64,000 nucleotides of DNA from Psychroflexus sediminis. Its GTDB lineage: Bacteria > Bacteroidota > Bacteroidia > Flavobacteriales > Flavobacteriaceae. The stretch lies in contig NZ_FNCW01000005.1 of assembly GCF_900099815.1 (NCBI RefSeq), positions 62,001-126,000 on the forward strand. Reading direction: 5' to 3'. This document shows positions 2,652 through 58,510 of the stretch, in pieces (the first letter of the stretch is position 1; each line of letters starts with the position of its first letter). The notes beneath the pieces are model-generated. The model searched no databases. It worked only from the letters and a program-made list of their open reading frames with translations, and was not told the origin of the DNA. The translations under genes were made by a program, and so were the position numbers.

Positions 2652-3179
2652 ATGAAAAAAACACGATCAGGGATTACAATTGAATGCATTGAAGGAGATA
2701 TTGCTGCACAGAACGATATTTCAGCGGTGGTAAATGCTGCGAATGCTCAGCTTAAAACAGGGGGCGGAGTGGCTGGAGCCATCCACCATGCTGCAGGTTC
2801 AGGTCTCGAGAAAGAATGCCGGTCTTTAGCTCCTATCGAGCCTGGAGAAGCTGTAATTACAGGCGGGCATAATCTGCCAAATCAATATGTTATTCACTGT
2901 CTGGGTCCTGTTTTTGGAAGAGATAAACCTGAAGACCAGCTTTTGGCAAATTGCTATAAAAATGCCTTAAATATTTCAGAAGAAAAAGGGATAGAATCTA
3001 TTGCCTTCCCAGCCATATCCACAGGTGCTTTTAGTTATCCAACCCAAAAAGCCGCTGAAGTAGCTATTGGAACTATCAGAGATATGCTTCCGAAATTAAA
3101 GGCTGTCAAAACAATTAGATTTGTACTCTATGATAAAAAAGATCTGGAAATTCATGAAAACATTTTATCTGAGCTTTAG
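2652..3179 (+). CDS. Macrodomain protein, probable O-acetyl-ADP-ribose deacetylase (YmdB/MacroD type)
   Basis: A single macrodomain of 175 residues fills the protein. It shows the MacroD-type ADP-ribose pocket: D16 in EGDIAAQ, the VVNAAN motif at 26-31, the glycine-rich loop GGGVAGAIHHAAG at 37-49, and AFPAISTGAFSYP at about 118-130. Proteins with these features hydrolyse O-acetyl-ADP-ribose or remove mono-ADP-ribose from acidic residues. The N31 and GGGVAGAIH elements of active enzymes are kept. It is cytoplasmic. The gene stands alone downstream of a tandem repeat. No sirtuin or ADP-ribosyltransferase gene is nearby to name a partner. Confidence 0.9.
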   Translation: MKKTRSGITIECIEGDIAAQNDISAVVNAANAQLKTGGGVAGAIHHAAGSGLEKECRSLAPIEPGEAVITGGHNLPNQYVIHCLGPVFGRDKPEDQLLANCYKNALNISEEKGIESIAFPAISTGAFSYPTQKAAEVAIGTIRDMLPKLKAVKTIRFVLYDKKDLEIHENILSEL

Positions 3180-3347
3180 GCTTATCGAATTGTAAAACTT
3201 GATTTTTTTAACTATCTGTTTAATTTTATTTGGAAAAAAATTATTGAAATTGAGTGACATATCTAGCCTTTAGCTTAAAAAGAATGCTGAAAAAAGGAAT
3301 CGTATTATGACCTATTTTGAAATAAGAAAAGACTTTTATCTTAACTC

Positions 3348-4367
3348 ATGAGCTTAACCCTATCTATTATAATCTTCGGTGTAGCGACATTGGTTATCGT
3401 TGTTGCCGGAACTGCACTGACAAGATATGCAGATCAGCTCGCAGATAAAACAGGCCTGGGAGAAGCCTTGGTAGGAGCCGTCTTTTTGGGTGGGGTTACT
3501 TCTATTGCCGGTATTATCACCTCGGTCTCAGCGGCTTACAACAATCATCCTGAACTGGCCATCAGCAACGCGATAGGAGGTATTGCAGCACAAACTCTTT
3601 TTCTTTCCATTGCAGATATTACCTATAGAAAGGTTAATCTGGAACATGCCTCTGCATCGTTAACAAATTTGATGCAAGGCGTTTTGCTTATCGGTTTACT
3701 GACACTCGTCTTACTAGGTGTCGCGAGTCCAAATTATACTCTATTCAACATTCACCCTATATCCATAACTATTATAATCGCCTATTTGCTTGGAACTCGA
3801 ATGATTTCCATGGCAAAAGAAAAACCGATGTGGAATCCTAAAATCACGCTCTCTACAGTTGAAGATACTCCGGACCAAGAAAATATCAAGAAAACAAAAA
3901 TGAGTCATCTTATCATCAAATTTGTTTTGCTGTCGATACTTGTTGGATTTTCGGGATATGCGATTGGTATATCCGGAATCAACATTTCGGATGCCACTGC
4001 ATTGAGCGAAGGCTTCGTCGGTTCAATATTTACCGCGGTAGCTACTTCACTTCCAGAACTCATCGTTACTTTGGCCGCTGTAAGGCAGAAAGCCCTTGCC
4101 CTTGCCGTTGGCAATATCATAGGAGGTAATTCTTTTGATGTGCTTTTCGTTGCTTTTTCAGACATAGCCTATCAGGACGGAAGCATTCTGCATAATATCA
4201 CAACCTATCAATCCTTTCTAGTGCCTATGACCATGCTTATGGCAAGTATCTTAATCATGGGTTTGCTTCTCAGGCAGCGCAAAGGCATAGGAAATATAGG
4301 CTGGGAAAGTGCCCTGATCATTTTAATTTTTATGCTGGGAAATGTGATCTTATATGCTTTTTTTTAA
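3348..4367 (+). CDS. CaCA-type (sodium/calcium exchanger-like) membrane antiporter
   Basis: This 339-residue protein has about ten membrane segments and the two-fold alpha-repeat plan of the Ca2+:cation antiporter family. The second repeat (about residues 227-272) is canonical, with TSLPEL at 233-238 and GNIIGGNSFD at 255-264. The first repeat (about 48-90) has TSIAGIIT where the acidic TSLPEL-type motif should be, although ISNAIGG is kept. One of the two acidic ion ligands is therefore missing, and calcium may not be the substrate. A soluble loop of about residues 155-187 separates the halves. The gene appears monocistronic. Confidence 0.8.
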   Translation: MSLTLSIIIFGVATLVIVVAGTALTRYADQLADKTGLGEALVGAVFLGGVTSIAGIITSVSAAYNNHPELAISNAIGGIAAQTLFLSIADITYRKVNLEHASASLTNLMQGVLLIGLLTLVLLGVASPNYTLFNIHPISITIIIAYLLGTRMISMAKEKPMWNPKITLSTVEDTPDQENIKKTKMSHLIIKFVLLSILVGFSGYAIGISGINISDATALSEGFVGSIFTAVATSLPELIVTLAAVRQKALALAVGNIIGGNSFDVLFVAFSDIAYQDGSILHNITTYQSFLVPMTMLMASILIMGLLLRQRKGIGNIGWESALIILIFMLGNVILYAFF

Positions 4368-4596
4368 AGATTCCCCGTCGAAGCCAAAAAGTTTTCCCTA
4401 GTCTTCGGGTTCTGAAAGGCGGTCACAAGTTTTAAAATCAGAGTACCACCCTGCCCTATCTCATAAATAAAACCTAAACTGAGCCTGCAGGCGGTTATGT
4501 CTTAGTTTATTTTTATTTTTAGAAGTGTTCACTGTTTAGTTGAATAAATACATCTATTTTTTAAACAATTAATTACAACCCAGAATAAGATTCGAA

Positions 4597-6444
4597 ATGC
4601 TAAATATATCTGAATTATCAAAAAAATCGATAGAACTGATTTTAAAAACACTTGATGAAGATGGAAAAATAGGTGCGAGTTTACCGGGCGGAGGCTTACT
4701 TCATATTGAAGAAAATCTGCCTTATTTGATGGTTTACAGGGAAAGGGAAGAAGATGCAGGCACTGAAAAATTAGTTTTAAGTGAAGCGTCTTACCTGTTG
4801 GTTGGTCAGCAGAACTTTGAAGATTATCAAAAGTTGATCCACGCCCTTATTGAAAGGCTTTGCACCAAATTCAAGTCTTACTTGGTTTTTGAAATCTATG
4901 CTGGAGAACCTAACAATTGCTTTACCATAAAAGCTCCAGTTACAAAGATAGGCAGCACAGTCCAGGTCCTGGAAGAAGAGCTGAATGAGTTAAACAAAAA
5001 ATTTACAGCCCTTGATTTAAAAATTGAAGTTCAGGACACTCCACACCGGCAAAAGGAGGGTGATCCCGAACTTATGAGCGTTGAGGATGCAAAACGATTA
5101 GGAGCCGTCGTCTTAGGACTGGAAGTTCCACCGGTCTACCGCAGTGAAACCGGTGATGTTTATCCTGTGTTTTTAAGGCAGTTTAAAGACTATCTCCTGG
5201 ATTCTATTCATAAATCCATATTTGATTTTGTACGGATTCACACCTCCTGTAGAATGGAGAGTTATTTGTCTATGGGCAGAGAGCACTTAAAGGATAAGGT
5301 ATTTGAGATCGATAAGGCCTTAGCAAAAATAGAACGCTCTTATCAATTTTTATGGCTGGTCTCCCCTGCTAATATTCATAGTATCAAAACCAGCTTTTTT
5401 GAAAGTCATTATGAGAAGGTTCTGGATTATCATTATCGTATACTTCCTATAGATCCTGATGTTTTGAAAAGAGAACTGTATAACCTTAAGATTGAAGACA
5501 TCGATGACCCTGCCATGTCCCATATTTTTCGAGAAAAACGTGAGGAATTGGATCATCAAATTACCATGCTGAATGAACGTGGAACTTCCAATTTTTTCTA
5601 TAACAGTATTAGACTATATAAGGGAATAAGCCGAAAATTAAATAACGAGGCCAAATCAATACTCACTGAAGTTGATGAGGAAGAGGAAAATGAAAATGAA
5701 GACTTTATAGATGCCAAAGGCTTTGCCAGTCTGGCACGCAGAGAATTCGACTATTTTTCGAAACAACATAAAGATTTTAAAAGTAAGATTCACATTCGTA
5801 AGGATGTAAACATTATGATGGTAAATAAGGGTGAGCTTTATATACCTGCGGATTACCGAATGAACAAAATTGAAGCCAGGGCACTGATTCAGCATGAGGT
5901 AGGTACGCATATACTCACGTATTACAACGGTATATGCCAACCCCTGGATTTACTGAGTAGCGGTCTGGCAGATTATGACCCGCTTCAAGAAGGCCTGGCT
6001 GTCATGTCTGAATATCTGGTAGGCGGATTGACAGCCAATAGGTTAAGAACCCTTGCGGGACGAGTTATTGCAGGTTCCGCCCGACTGGAGGGAGGCAGAT
6101 TTCAAGAGATATTCAAACTCCTAAAACTAGAGTACGGTTTTTCTGCTGAAAGGGCCTTCAATATTACTTCCAGAATTATGCAGGGTGGTGGCTTTTTAAA
6201 AGACATTATTTATTTAAAAGGTCTGGTGCAGCTTCGTGAACACCTTCAGAAAGGTGGAGAATACGAACCCTTATTGGGAGGAAAATTTGCCTTAAAGCAC
6301 ACTAAGATTATAGAAGAATTAACCGAGAGAAATATACTAAAACCTGCTGCACTTCGGCCAAGTTATTTATTGACCGAAGACGTAAATGAAAAATTAAGTT
6401 TAATCAGAGATGGGCTTCCCATTTCAAAAATGATAACAAAATGA
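4597..6444 (+). CDS. DUF1704 / QEGLA-motif metallopeptidase-like protein
   Basis: The 615-residue protein belongs to the DUF1704 family, often annotated as flavohemoglobin expression-modulating QEGLA motif protein. The putative metal site HEVGTH is at 433-438 and QEGLA at 464-468. The glutamate of QEGLA fits a third zinc ligand, as in gluzincin peptidases. Human relatives (MATCAP) are zinc carboxypeptidases that remove the last residue of tubulin, so a peptidase acting on a C-terminal amino acid is plausible here. There is no signal peptide. The gene overlaps the next one by four bases (ATGA), which ties it to an ATP-grasp ligase. The family is certain; the substrate is unknown. Confidence 0.85.
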   Translation: MLNISELSKKSIELILKTLDEDGKIGASLPGGGLLHIEENLPYLMVYREREEDAGTEKLVLSEASYLLVGQQNFEDYQKLIHALIERLCTKFKSYLVFEIYAGEPNNCFTIKAPVTKIGSTVQVLEEELNELNKKFTALDLKIEVQDTPHRQKEGDPELMSVEDAKRLGAVVLGLEVPPVYRSETGDVYPVFLRQFKDYLLDSIHKSIFDFVRIHTSCRMESYLSMGREHLKDKVFEIDKALAKIERSYQFLWLVSPANIHSIKTSFFESHYEKVLDYHYRILPIDPDVLKRELYNLKIEDIDDPAMSHIFREKREELDHQITMLNERGTSNFFYNSIRLYKGISRKLNNEAKSILTEVDEEEENENEDFIDAKGFASLARREFDYFSKQHKDFKSKIHIRKDVNIMMVNKGELYIPADYRMNKIEARALIQHEVGTHILTYYNGICQPLDLLSSGLADYDPLQEGLAVMSEYLVGGLTANRLRTLAGRVIAGSARLEGGRFQEIFKLLKLEYGFSAERAFNITSRIMQGGGFLKDIIYLKGLVQLREHLQKGGEYEPLLGGKFALKHTKIIEELTERNILKPAALRPSYLLTEDVNEKLSLIRDGLPISKMITK

Positions 6445-7490
6445 AAATTTGCTTTGTATTAAACGACATTGAAAATGAGAGGTATGGAACCTCTATCATG
6501 ATCATGAAGACCGCGCATGATCGCGGGCATGACGTTTATGCCATGAGCGTTGGTGATTTCAACTTTCACCATGGCGGACCTATTAGCATTAACAGTACTC
6601 AAGTTCCTAAAGATGCAAAAATCGATACTGCTCAGGACTATTTGAAGGCTTTAAAAAGTTCGAAAGCCCTCCAGAAAAATATAACTTCACGGGACTTGGA
6701 TGTATTATTCATCAGAAACAATCCCACCGAGGAAGGATCAGGTCGGGAATGGGCCGAACATGCCGGCATTGCTTTTGGAAAACTTGTACAGCAGCAGGGG
6801 GTTTTGGTGTTAAACGATGCGTATGCCCTATCTCAGGCCTTTATAGACAAGCTTTATTTTGAAGAACTTCCTCAGGAAATAAAACCAAATTCCATCATTA
6901 CCCGAAATAAGGAAGATATTCTAAAATTCTGGGAAGAAAATGATAAGAAAATGGTTTTAAAACCCCTGGAAGGTTCGGGTGGACAAAACGTATTTCTTGT
7001 GGATGAAAACCAAAAAAACCTGAATCAAATCATTGAAACCATCAGCCAGCATGGGTATATCATTGCTCAGGAGTTCTTGCCCGATGTCAAGAATGGTGAT
7101 GTGCGTATCCTGCTTATGAACGGTCGCGTTATGGTAAAAGATGATAAACAGGCCATCATAAGGCGTGTGAGTGGTGAAGGTGAATTCAGAAGTAATTTTG
7201 CGCTTGGGGCTTCTGCAGATCACAGTGACCTGACCCCGGAAATGGAACGCATAGTAGAACTAACCGCTCCCAAGCTTATAAGCGACGGCCTCTTCTTTGT
7301 AGGTTTAGATGTGGTAGATGACAAACTGATAGAAATCAACGTATTGAGCCCCGGTGGAATGGAGCATTTCGACGAAGTAGGCCTTCCCGAGTTTACCCCT
7401 ATTATTGTGAAAGCTATTGAACGTAAAGTGGAATATAAAAAGCTTTACGGTCATCAGTTAACAAACCGGGAACTTGCCTGCATGGAGTAA
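6441..7490 (+). CDS. ATP-grasp ligase, glutathione synthetase/RimK-like
   Basis: The 349-residue protein has the GshB/RimK layout: a pre-ATP-grasp domain (about 1-125), then the ATP-grasp fold with KPLEGSGGQNVF at 174-185, GDVRILLMNG at 219-228, RRVSGEGEFRSNFALGA at 241-257, and the metal-binding end GLDVVDDKLIEIN with E298 and N300. Such enzymes join a carboxylate to an amine through an acyl phosphate. Databases usually call it glutathione synthase, but no gshA is nearby, and the window carries a YpdA gene that points to bacillithiol as the thiol. Translational coupling to the DUF1704 peptidase suggests another amide product. The fold is certain; the reaction is not. Confidence 0.8.
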   Translation: MKICFVLNDIENERYGTSIMIMKTAHDRGHDVYAMSVGDFNFHHGGPISINSTQVPKDAKIDTAQDYLKALKSSKALQKNITSRDLDVLFIRNNPTEEGSGREWAEHAGIAFGKLVQQQGVLVLNDAYALSQAFIDKLYFEELPQEIKPNSIITRNKEDILKFWEENDKKMVLKPLEGSGGQNVFLVDENQKNLNQIIETISQHGYIIAQEFLPDVKNGDVRILLMNGRVMVKDDKQAIIRRVSGEGEFRSNFALGASADHSDLTPEMERIVELTAPKLISDGLFFVGLDVVDDKLIEINVLSPGGMEHFDEVGLPEFTPIIVKAIERKVEYKKLYGHQLTNRELACME

Positions 7491-7604
7491 AACGCTTACA
7501 GGACAGGCTACACTGCCAAATCTAATTTAGGACTTATCGAGTTTTTTCGAGCCCTGAGTTTGAAATCAATTACTTAGGATTAAAAAATTTAAATAACTTA
7601 AAAA

Positions 7605-8519
7605 ATGAGTCAACAAGACGATCAACATATTCCAAGAATTATAGGAGAGTATAGCAGCGATAAAAAAGGCCCATTGCTTTTTGTTACCGCAGGAATACAC
7701 GGCAACGAACCCAGCGGTGTAAAAGCTTTGGAAGAGGTTTTTAAACAACTAAAGAAAACCAAACCCGAAATCGAAGGAAAACTGGTTGGTGTTTCTGGAA
7801 ACCATAAAGCGCTCAATCAAAACAAACGTTACATCGATGAAGATCTCAACAGGGTGTGGACTAAAGAGAATATTGAACAGAAAAAAGCAGAAACCCATGA
7901 ACAAAAAGAAATGTGGGAAATTATTGGTATTCTAAATCAATATCCGGAAGAGGAATATACCAAACGCTACTTTCTGGATTGCCATACCACTTCCTCTCCA
8001 AGTTTGCCTTATATTTCTGTCCAGGTCGTCAATGATAATGATGAATGGGCGCATAAATTTCCTACTTATATCATTCGCGGATTCAGCGATATCATCACCG
8101 GCGATATAGATCATTACCTCAGTCGAATTGGAATCACGGGCTTTGTATTCGAAGCCGGACAACACGAAGATGAAACCTCTGTGGAAAATCACGAAGGTGT
8201 CATTTGGCTGGCCTTAAAAGAAGCCTGCCAGCTCGATCTTTCAAAAATTAAAACCTATCCGGAATGCGTCAATCGATTTGCTGAAAAAAATGCGCCCGAG
8301 CAAAAAACCTTTGAACTGATTCACAGACACGGTCTTGAAGATTCGGACATTTTTGAAATGGAACCCGGGTATGAAAATTTTCAAAAGATTGAAAAAGGAG
8401 AACTTCTGGCTAAACAAAACGGGAATGAAGTTAGAAGTGAGTGGGATGCCAGAATTTTTATGCCGCTTTATCAGTCTCAGGGAAATGACGGTTTTTTTGT
8501 GATTGAAGAAGTAGAATAG
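7605..8519 (+). CDS. Succinylglutamate desuccinylase/aspartoacylase-like zinc hydrolase (M14 family)
   Basis: The 304-residue protein matches the AstE/AspA branch of M14 metallocarboxypeptidases. The zinc ligands H32 and E35 lie in GIHGNEPSG, the third is H127 in LDCHTT, and the likely catalytic glutamate is E183 in VFEAGQH. RYIDEDLNRVW at 75-85 is the usual substrate-side motif. Members cleave an amide bond next to a free carboxylate, such as N-acyl amino acids. No signal peptide is seen. It lies 114 bases after the ATP-grasp gene on the same strand, so it may share its transcript. No arginine-succinyltransferase genes are nearby, so arginine catabolism is unlikely. The acyl-amino acid substrate is unknown. 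Confidence 0.8.
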   Translation: MSQQDDQHIPRIIGEYSSDKKGPLLFVTAGIHGNEPSGVKALEEVFKQLKKTKPEIEGKLVGVSGNHKALNQNKRYIDEDLNRVWTKENIEQKKAETHEQKEMWEIIGILNQYPEEEYTKRYFLDCHTTSSPSLPYISVQVVNDNDEWAHKFPTYIIRGFSDIITGDIDHYLSRIGITGFVFEAGQHEDETSVENHEGVIWLALKEACQLDLSKIKTYPECVNRFAEKNAPEQKTFELIHRHGLEDSDIFEMEPGYENFQKIEKGELLAKQNGNEVRSEWDARIFMPLYQSQGNDGFFVIEEVE

Positions 8520-57550: not shown

Positions 57551-58510
57551 ATGCTATATGATGTTTTGATTATTGGAGGCGGTCCCATTGGGATTGCATG
57601 TGCATTGGAGGCGAAGAAGAAAAACCTTTCTTACATCATTATAGAAAAAGGAACTTTGGTCAATTCCATTTACAATTATCCAGATAAAATGACTTTCTTT
57701 TCCACTTCAGAAAAGCTAGAGCTGGATGATATTCCTTTTGTGAGTAATAGTCCAAAACCTAGCAAACAAGAAGCCTTAGAGTACTACAGAAGAATTGTGG
57801 AATCCAAGCAAATTCATATTCAATTATTTGAAAAAGTAGAGCGTGTAAAAAATGAAGATCATGTGTTTACAACCACTACTTCAAAATCTACGTACCAATC
57901 CAAAAATTTAGTACTGGCCACCGGATTTTATGACATCCCCAATTACTTGAATATTCCTGGAGAAGATCTAGACAAAGTCACACACTACTATAGGGATCCT
58001 CATTACTATGCCACACAAAAGGTGGTGGTGGTAGGCGCAAGCAATTCTTCTGTGGACGCTGCTTTGGAGACCTACAGAAAAGGAGCTGAAGTGACCATGA
58101 TTGTTCGTGGGGAACAAATTGGCGAGCGTGTCAAATACTGGGTAAGACCGGATGTTATCAACAGAATAGAGGAGGGAAGTATCAAAGCTTTTTTCAATTC
58201 TGAACTGACAGAAATTGGAGAAGATTACGTAAGGTTTAAAGACAAAAATGGAAAAATTCAGACCCTGGAAAATGATTTTGTATTAGCACTTACGGGGTAT
58301 AGACCCAATTTCGAGTTTTTAGAAAAAATGGGAATTGAATTGAGCGATGACCAGCTTTCCATTCCCAAGTACGATAAACAAACCATGAAAACCAATATCG
58401 AAGGCATTTATTTGGCAGGTGTCATCTGTGGCGGTATGGAAACTCATAAGTGGTTTATCGAAAACTCAAGAATACATGCCAAAATGATTATGGAGGATAT
58501 TAAATCTTAA
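57551..58510 (+). CDS. ypdA: YpdA family bacillithiol disulfide reductase
   Basis: The 319-residue FAD/NAD(P)H protein has IIGGGPIGIACALEAKKK near 6-23, LVLATGFYDIPNYLNIPGE near 119-137, and a second dinucleotide fold VVVVGASNSSVDAALETYRKG near 157-177. YpdA (Bdr) recycles bacillithiol disulfide with NADPH in Gram-positive bacteria, and it is also found in Bacteroidota. The thioredoxin reductase CxxC is absent, as in this family. Its presence suggests bacillithiol as the low-molecular-weight thiol. It is likely co-transcribed with rpe. Confidence 0.85.
   Translation: MLYDVLIIGGGPIGIACALEAKKKNLSYIIIEKGTLVNSIYNYPDKMTFFSTSEKLELDDIPFVSNSPKPSKQEALEYYRRIVESKQIHIQLFEKVERVKNEDHVFTTTTSKSTYQSKNLVLATGFYDIPNYLNIPGEDLDKVTHYYRDPHYYATQKVVVVGASNSSVDAALETYRKGAEVTMIVRGEQIGERVKYWVRPDVINRIEEGSIKAFFNSELTEIGEDYVRFKDKNGKIQTLENDFVLALTGYRPNFEFLEKMGIELSDDQLSIPKYDKQTMKTNIEGIYLAGVICGGMETHKWFIENSRIHAKMIMEDIKS

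Follow-up and report, generated by a model that had tools for sequence, protein, structure and literature searches.

What could a metallopeptidase, an ATP-grasp ligase annotated as glutathione synthetase and an aspartoacylase-like amidohydrolase be doing side by side in one operon? The question is raised by positions 4597 to 8519 of a 64,000-nucleotide stretch of the Psychroflexus sediminis genome (contig NZ_FNCW01000005.1, positions 62,001 to 126,000; hereafter the window), where three open reading frames (ORFs), P0001, P0002 and P0003, follow one another on the forward strand. The features concerned are the following.

4597..6444, + strand: P0001, MATCAP-family metallopeptidase with an inactive-looking N-terminal FGase-type domain, 615 amino acids
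4684..5244, + strand: apparent FGase-type (M14-like fold) domain without metal-site residues, residues 30-216
5392..6405, + strand: MATCAP catalytic domain, residues 266-603 (PF08014, Pfam search)
5893..5910, + strand: HEVGTH, predicted zinc site, residues 433-438 (H433, E434 and H438 invariant)
5986..6000, + strand: QEGLA motif, residues 464-468 (Q464, E465 and G466 invariant)
6441..7490, + strand: P0002, ATP-grasp amide ligase of the PRK12458 group (NF009110), annotated glutathione synthetase, 349 amino acids
7605..8519, + strand: P0003, M14-fold amidohydrolase of the AstE/AspA kind, 304 amino acids (PF24827)

An earlier note, made from the sequence alone, had read these genes as a DUF1704 peptidase, an ATP-grasp ligase and an AspA-like hydrolase that together add and remove an amide tag. 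The ORF list of the window bears out the positions and the shared strand that it gave, with P0001 and P0002 overlapping by four bases (6441-6444) and 114 bases separating P0002 from P0003. The families hold as well. Residues 266-603 of P0001 match PF08014 MATCAP (E 7.6e-78), P0002 matches GSH-S_ATP PF02955 (4.9e-51) and GSH-S_N PF02951 (1.1e-8), and P0003 matches AstE_AspA_cat PF24827 (E 2.3e-18, 66.9 bits against a cut-off of 25). We take the MATCAP family to be the former DUF1704, which presumably also corresponds to COG3930. Our answer to the opening question is that the ligase, an M14-fold metallo-amidohydrolase (an N-formylglutamate-amidohydrolase-like FGase or, in one clade, an AspA-like protein) and MATCAP form one conserved module. 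With a probability of roughly 0.45, this three-enzyme operon builds and dismantles one small peptide-like compound; beyond the linkage, the single exchange of hydrolases and the lost metal site described below, that account is what we infer.

The module was recognized by its linkage. The same 198 Bacteroidota genomes were searched for four families (MATCAP, the ligase, AstE/AspA and FGase PF05013). MATCAP occurs in 12 of the 198 and in none of 14 control genomes. At E 0.001 the ligase model NF009110 matches 84 of the 198 genomes and six of the 14 controls; ligase matches above 390 bits are confined to 11 genomes, ten of them over the curated cut-off, and the next-best genome reaches 214.8 bits. 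All 11 are among the 12 MATCAP genomes, and each has a ligase within 2.5 kb of MATCAP. The remaining MATCAP genome, G186, carries a short form of the protein and lacks a ligase of this kind. AstE/AspA matches, present in 96 of the 198 genomes, adjoin MATCAP only in the P. sediminis genome and in G053 of the same genus, and FGase matches, present in 28, adjoin it in the remaining nine of the 11 cassette genomes, being fused to it in G045.

A second sample consisted of 185 genomes of the class of G199 (presumably Gammaproteobacteria in GTDB), a Nitrosomonas metagenome genome picked because it has the cassette. Among ligase matches at E 1e-70 or better, those above 350 bits occur in nine genomes and adjoin MATCAP in all nine; three more, near 240 bits, lie in genomes without a MATCAP match. 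MATCAP was found in 31 of the 185 genomes, and in genome G232 of this class the match is interrupted by stops. Hypergeometric values for the ligase-MATCAP association, which treat genomes as independent when they are not, are 3e-17 for the 198 genomes, 1e-14 when the genus Psychroflexus is left out, and 2e-7 for the second class once its chosen centre is removed. The earlier note had named rare co-occurrence as grounds for dropping its idea; for ligase and MATCAP this is far from the case, and their linkage is stronger than first stated.

The cassette extends well beyond these samples. Scanning one genome per species with the ligase alignment brought up at least 557 relatives, the closest named one being that of Psychroflexus aurantiacus (97% identity in the best segment), and the best 80, chosen by their ligase, were studied as loci. 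They come from Bacteroidota, Balneolota, Pseudomonadota, Planctomycetota, Poribacteria, Calditrichota, Myxococcota and the actinobacterium Kytococcus. Presence was counted from a six-frame profile search; a simple ORF caller missed the ligase of L101 and every cassette gene of L120. Ligase, MATCAP and AspA occur together in 44 loci, ligase, MATCAP and FGase in 30, ligase and AspA in one (L075), ligase and MATCAP only in three (L124, L125 and L130), and the ligase alone in two (L122 and L133). MATCAP is thereby present in 77 of the 80, and the other three (L075, L122 and L133) have their ligase at a contig end; in L124 it is MATCAP that lies at a contig end. Wherever the simple caller detected cassette genes (90 loci), all of them lay on one strand, and the 169 junctions comprise 62 overlaps, some of which stem from over-long start calls, with a median gap of 8 bases and 161 junctions at 150 bases or less. 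Two or three ligases are found in six of 88 loci (L047, L048, L070, L074, L119 and L121). Ligase and MATCAP distances are correlated (r 0.95 over 79 loci), as shared descent alone would also produce. Ligase matches also turned up in plasmid records from 123 strains of rhizobia and related bacteria. The cassette of Sinorhizobium meliloti RCAM1750 is annotated as N-formylglutamate amidohydrolase, QEGLA protein and glutathione synthase; in the laboratory strain S. meliloti 1021 the profiles detect this trio on pSymB.

No further partner gene emerged from the flanks. Among 92 loci, two of which (L043 and L054) are not cassettes, the largest non-cassette cluster, from clustering without an annotation search, reached only 20 loci, mostly of close relatives, and an additional conserved partner was rejected. 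Within 900 bases no short precursor ORF is common beyond close relatives; the 14 largest clusters of short ORFs cover at most eight loci each and by eye mostly echo larger genes on the opposite strand or in another frame. A ribosomally synthesized and post-translationally modified peptide with an adjacent precursor was rejected on this basis. A transporter of about 441 amino acids, by eye a sodium/dicarboxylate symporter, flanks eight of the 92 loci (L044, L045, L047, L048, L050, L076, L114 and L131).

The third position is where the cassettes differ. Across the 80 loci it is taken by AspA in 45, by FGase in 30 and by both in none of the stretches examined, so that one or the other is present in 75. 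The AspA in the position of P0003 stands in the place that FGase holds in most other lineages sampled. In a MATCAP-domain tree of 87 rows, in which L053 and L055 represent the genus of the window and the window's own MATCAP is not included, one branch (support 100/100), recovered in 100% of 200 bootstrap trees, separates the 45 AspA-cassette rows from all others. Because the AspA cassettes form one clade, the tree suggests that a single FGase/AspA exchange would suffice, and FGase, being the more widely spread, is placed as the probable earlier occupant. The tree program warned of long branches meeting, the AspA group among them, and the row labels, taken from the simple ORF caller, mark 11 rows as having neither hydrolase, more than the six-frame search shows. 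MATCAPs of two Membranihabitans species (Saprospiraceae; L093 and L094) nest at two places among Flavobacteriaceae, a placement that suggests possible transfer of the cassette between lineages. The conservation of the three-gene order, which the earlier note had proposed to examine, therefore divides in two: the pairing of ligase and MATCAP is widespread, and AspA as third gene is confined to one clade.

P0003 itself belongs to a family in which the M14-type metal residues are invariant in 30 rows, the metal and catalytic roles of the conserved residues being presumed. It misses the equivalogs for AstE/AspA proper (TIGR03242, 60 bits against 305.65; PRK02259, 61.5 against 180). Its top-scoring named structures are AstE and DoeB, both catabolic enzymes.

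P0001 has the features of a MATCAP protein, namely a PF08014 domain with HExxxH and QEG motifs and the MATCAP fold. Residues H433, E434, H438, Q464, E465 and G466 do not vary across 56 full-length rows, one of them P0001, and the first three are equally constant in a 12-row alignment; the HEVGTH and QEGLA motifs thus stand where the earlier note had seen them. The activity associated with the family is removal of a C-terminal residue. P0001 falls 36.5 bits short of the QEGLA equivalog TIGR02421 (302.1 against 338.65). The cassette member of S. meliloti passes with 350.5 bits, so this model is unable to separate cassette from other MATCAPs; the protein of the cassette-less G186 scores 269.2.

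By model and profile, the N-terminal third of P0001 (residues 30-216) looks like an FGase-type domain that has lost its metal residues. In an alignment of remote relatives, the DxNR columns of the fused domain are gapped in 77 of 77 rows, and His is outside the four commonest residues at all three conserved His columns. This domain lacks the conserved His, Asp, Asn, Arg and Glu, which are intact in AspA and in the cassette FGases. FGase-MATCAP fusions occur in L046, L163 and L165, and in some lineages the fused FGase is residue-complete.

MATCAP is also found outside the cassette. A second, mostly shorter bacterial class was seen in 13 stretches (L150-L162), which have no common neighbour; L156 and L157 have theirs near a RimK-like gene, and in L162 the simple ORF caller failed to show MATCAP. 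Only one of 50,697 phage records searched matched P0001, and it has MATCAP alone; carriage of the cassette by phages was rejected accordingly. That record (L168, Pseudomonas phage Y1, marked UNVERIFIED) has a 502-amino-acid open frame at 3152-4657 with a MATCAP match of 448.8 bits, and neither ligase nor FGase within the 8.5 kb examined.

Could P0002 simply be an ordinary glutathione synthase beside unrelated peptidases? The name belongs to NF009110 (the PRK12458 ATP-grasp subfamily), whose cut-off P0002 passes (421.5 bits against 408), and the accessible part of a review of lactic acid bacteria treats PRK12458 as a GshB marker (PMC3462692). Among named relatives, the ligase profile is nearer GshB (225 bits) than RimK (81 bits), a profile of the ligase alignment matched 1gsa at E 9e-66, and P0002 is far from cyanophycin synthetase (cya_phycin_syn, 19.1 bits against 850). 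Both glutathione synthase equivalogs are nevertheless missed (PRK05246, 203.9 against 272; TIGR01380, 188 against 299.05), and PF04262 GshA was found in none of 12 genomes searched, that of P. sediminis among them. GCS2 matches occur in four of the 12 (three of the 11 with the cassette) and are strong in G130, a cassette genome (222.9 bits), and in the cassette-less G186; given these matches, some cassette hosts might make glutathione. The earlier note had held that a gshA elsewhere in the genome would speak against its idea. The only GCS2 match in P. sediminis (90 bits against a Pfam cut-off of 21) lies inside a different ligase operon, L135, and is far under the cut-offs of glutamate-cysteine ligase models (gshA_cyano, 38.5 against 249.05; YbdK subfamily, 58.9 against 176.4). 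Because bshA is present in the genome (560.7 bits against 273.7) and YpdA in the window at 57551-58510 (501 against 339.9), bacillithiol is indicated instead, as the earlier note had surmised from YpdA. No flavohemoglobin above the cut-off was found in this genome, weaker matches spanning only the last 60% of the model, and a flavohemoglobin link was rejected. The view that the glutathione synthase and flavohemoglobin labels fit badly is thus upheld. With the adjacency of ligase and MATCAP non-random besides, ordinary glutathione synthesis was rejected on the missed equivalogs, the lack of PF04262 GshA and the bacillithiol genes, and we regard it as very improbable indeed.

How might the module work? 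ATP-grasp ligases form amide bonds with ATP, and FGase and AspA hydrolyse the amide at an acidic residue. The GshB-like ligase would activate an amino acid or short peptide at its terminal carboxylate and join an amino acid to it; the acceptor is probably N-acylated or gamma-linked through glutamate or aspartate. FGase or AspA would open the amide bond on the acidic side (acyl or isopeptide), and the MATCAP domain would take off the C-terminal residue. The apparently dead FGase-type domain could hold the product for the MATCAP site, a docking role that would fit the FGase-MATCAP fusions in some lineages. In the clade of the window, AspA would have taken over the job of the active FGase. A cycle of making and dismantling is the simplest reading because one maker and two breakers are fixed in one operon. 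Three points favour a small peptide over a protein tag: the closest match of the ligase is GshB, the third enzyme is of a kind suited to small acyl amino acids, and additional ligases would go well with stepwise synthesis.

Several observations weigh against this reading. Similarity to GshB leaves the acids joined undefined, and substrate, product and direction are only predicted. Because FGase and AspA have a common fold, the reaction may have changed with the swap, and both hydrolases might act on a precursor rather than recycle a product. For the N-terminal domain of P0001, the best 50 Foldseek rows contain no FGase, and the top match is the poly-gamma-glutamate hydrolase 3a9l (E 4.3e-3). 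The 80 loci, the top scorers among at least 557, are weighted towards Flavobacteriaceae, and two of them (L125 and L130) have neither FGase nor AspA. In the second class, 20 of the 31 MATCAP genomes have another, higher-scoring MATCAP (PF08014 above 360 bits), mostly shorter than the cassette kind, with no such ligase, and G310 (L165) has an FGase-MATCAP fusion with no ligase within the 9 kb read.

The same genes could instead tag protein C-termini reversibly, with the ligase adding an amino acid, MATCAP removing it and AspA or FGase trimming the freed acyl amino acid, in parallel to tubulin tyrosination. We consider this unlikely. No flanking cluster exceeds 20 of the 92 loci, which leaves no candidate target; the ligase profile is closer to GshB than to RimK; and a tag cycle has no obvious need for an N-acyl amidohydrolase. 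Of the tag system put forward in the earlier note, the gene system therefore stands on its linkage, and the amide tag appears less likely than a small peptide. A stricter version, in which MATCAP and ligase act on one substrate in a bacterial C-terminal add-and-remove cycle, a prokaryotic counterpart of tubulin tyrosine ligase (TTL) and MATCAP with the dead FGase-type domain as substrate reader, seems quite unlikely.

One-way biosynthesis, in which a precursor lengthened by the ligase is cut by both hydrolases to release the finished compound, draws on the tight operon, the fixed set of enzymes and the two or three ligases in six of 88 loci. It is made doubtful by the flanks, which offer neither a short ORF within 900 bases that is common beyond close relatives nor a flanking cluster in more than 20 of the 92 loci (clusters formed without an annotation search). 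The operon might also be catabolic, scavenging acylated or gamma-linked peptides, with the ligase serving to salvage a piece. Hydrolytic activity is indeed suggested for two of the three enzymes, the best named structures for P0003 are the catabolic AstE and DoeB, and by eye an amino-acid or dicarboxylate transporter lies near some loci, one cluster in eight of the 92; by eye, no single transporter cluster stands near most cassettes. Since the ligase is kept in 11 of the 12 Bacteroidota MATCAP genomes (and in 80 of 80 loci by selection), we find a catabolic role distinctly improbable. Building and dismantling a small peptide-like compound remains the account that we favour.

Published data touch on the cassette in two places. 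In the accessible part of an RNA-seq study of Photobacterium damselae at 1% versus 3% NaCl, A0J47_RS17020 ('GshB') is up 38.4-fold and A0J47_RS17025 ('QEGLA') 27.5-fold, and the former, among the strongest responders, is discussed as glutathione synthetase (PMC10308900). It is probably the ligase described here, judging from the neighbouring locus tags and not from compared sequences. In the part of a Vibrio vulnificus table available to us, VV2_1203 (COG3930) adjoins VV2_1204, a glutathione synthetase (PMC3091676). No description of the cassette as a system was found in the literature searched, available in part, with most subscription papers outside the search.

The module spans Flavobacteriia, rhizobia, planctomycetes and an actinobacterium, and no product for it was found in the same literature. 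Annotation labels its parts glutathione synthase, flavohemoglobin modulator and N-formylglutamate amidohydrolase, names that are misleading. If our reading is correct, a peptide metabolite or tag not yet described would be made by bacteria that have no recognised GshA, and a testable function could be assigned to the bacterial relatives of a human tubulin peptidase.

The P. sediminis genome has further amidoligase operons. On contig C29, L135 (6532-9886, minus strand) is a RLAN-RimK/GCS2/FGase operon, and L136 and L137 have ORFs of like length in the same order. On contig C11, L054 (6974-9244, minus strand) has a RimB-like PF05618 protein, RimK and an AstE/AspA protein; neighbouring matches to RimK-like and AstE/AspA proteins were also noticed by eye in many of the 198 Bacteroidota genomes. 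That two further ATP-grasp ligases of this genome sit beside AspA or FGase was counted in favour of a peptide-building and peptide-dismantling module.

Among known systems, cyanophycin synthetase CphA with the dipeptide hydrolase CphZ differs from the cassette, whose ligase is GshB-like, and we know of no MATCAP in that system. The eukaryotic cycle of TTL and MATCAP is closer, with a related MATCAP domain and an ATP-grasp ligase in TTL; the cassette has in addition an amidohydrolase and an FGase-type domain fused to MATCAP, and we know of no tubulin-like target for it. The operon for the osmolyte NAGGN, an acylated dipeptide, comprises asnO, ngg and an M42 peptidase and likewise unites ligase and peptidase, with different families. 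In RimK/RimB, according to the accessible part of the source, an ATP-grasp ligase is bound and regulated by a linked peptidase (PMC12239564). The cassette resembles that pair in linking such a ligase with a peptidase and differs in ligase clade and peptidase family; P. sediminis has its separate RimB-like/RimK/AspA locus besides. Iyer, Abhiman, Burroughs and Aravind (2009, Mol Biosyst 5:1636) reportedly predicted amidoligase-peptidase modules from gene neighbourhoods, in which, as in the cassette, an ATP-grasp ligase is linked to peptidases. The cassette belongs to this amidoligase-peptidase kind.

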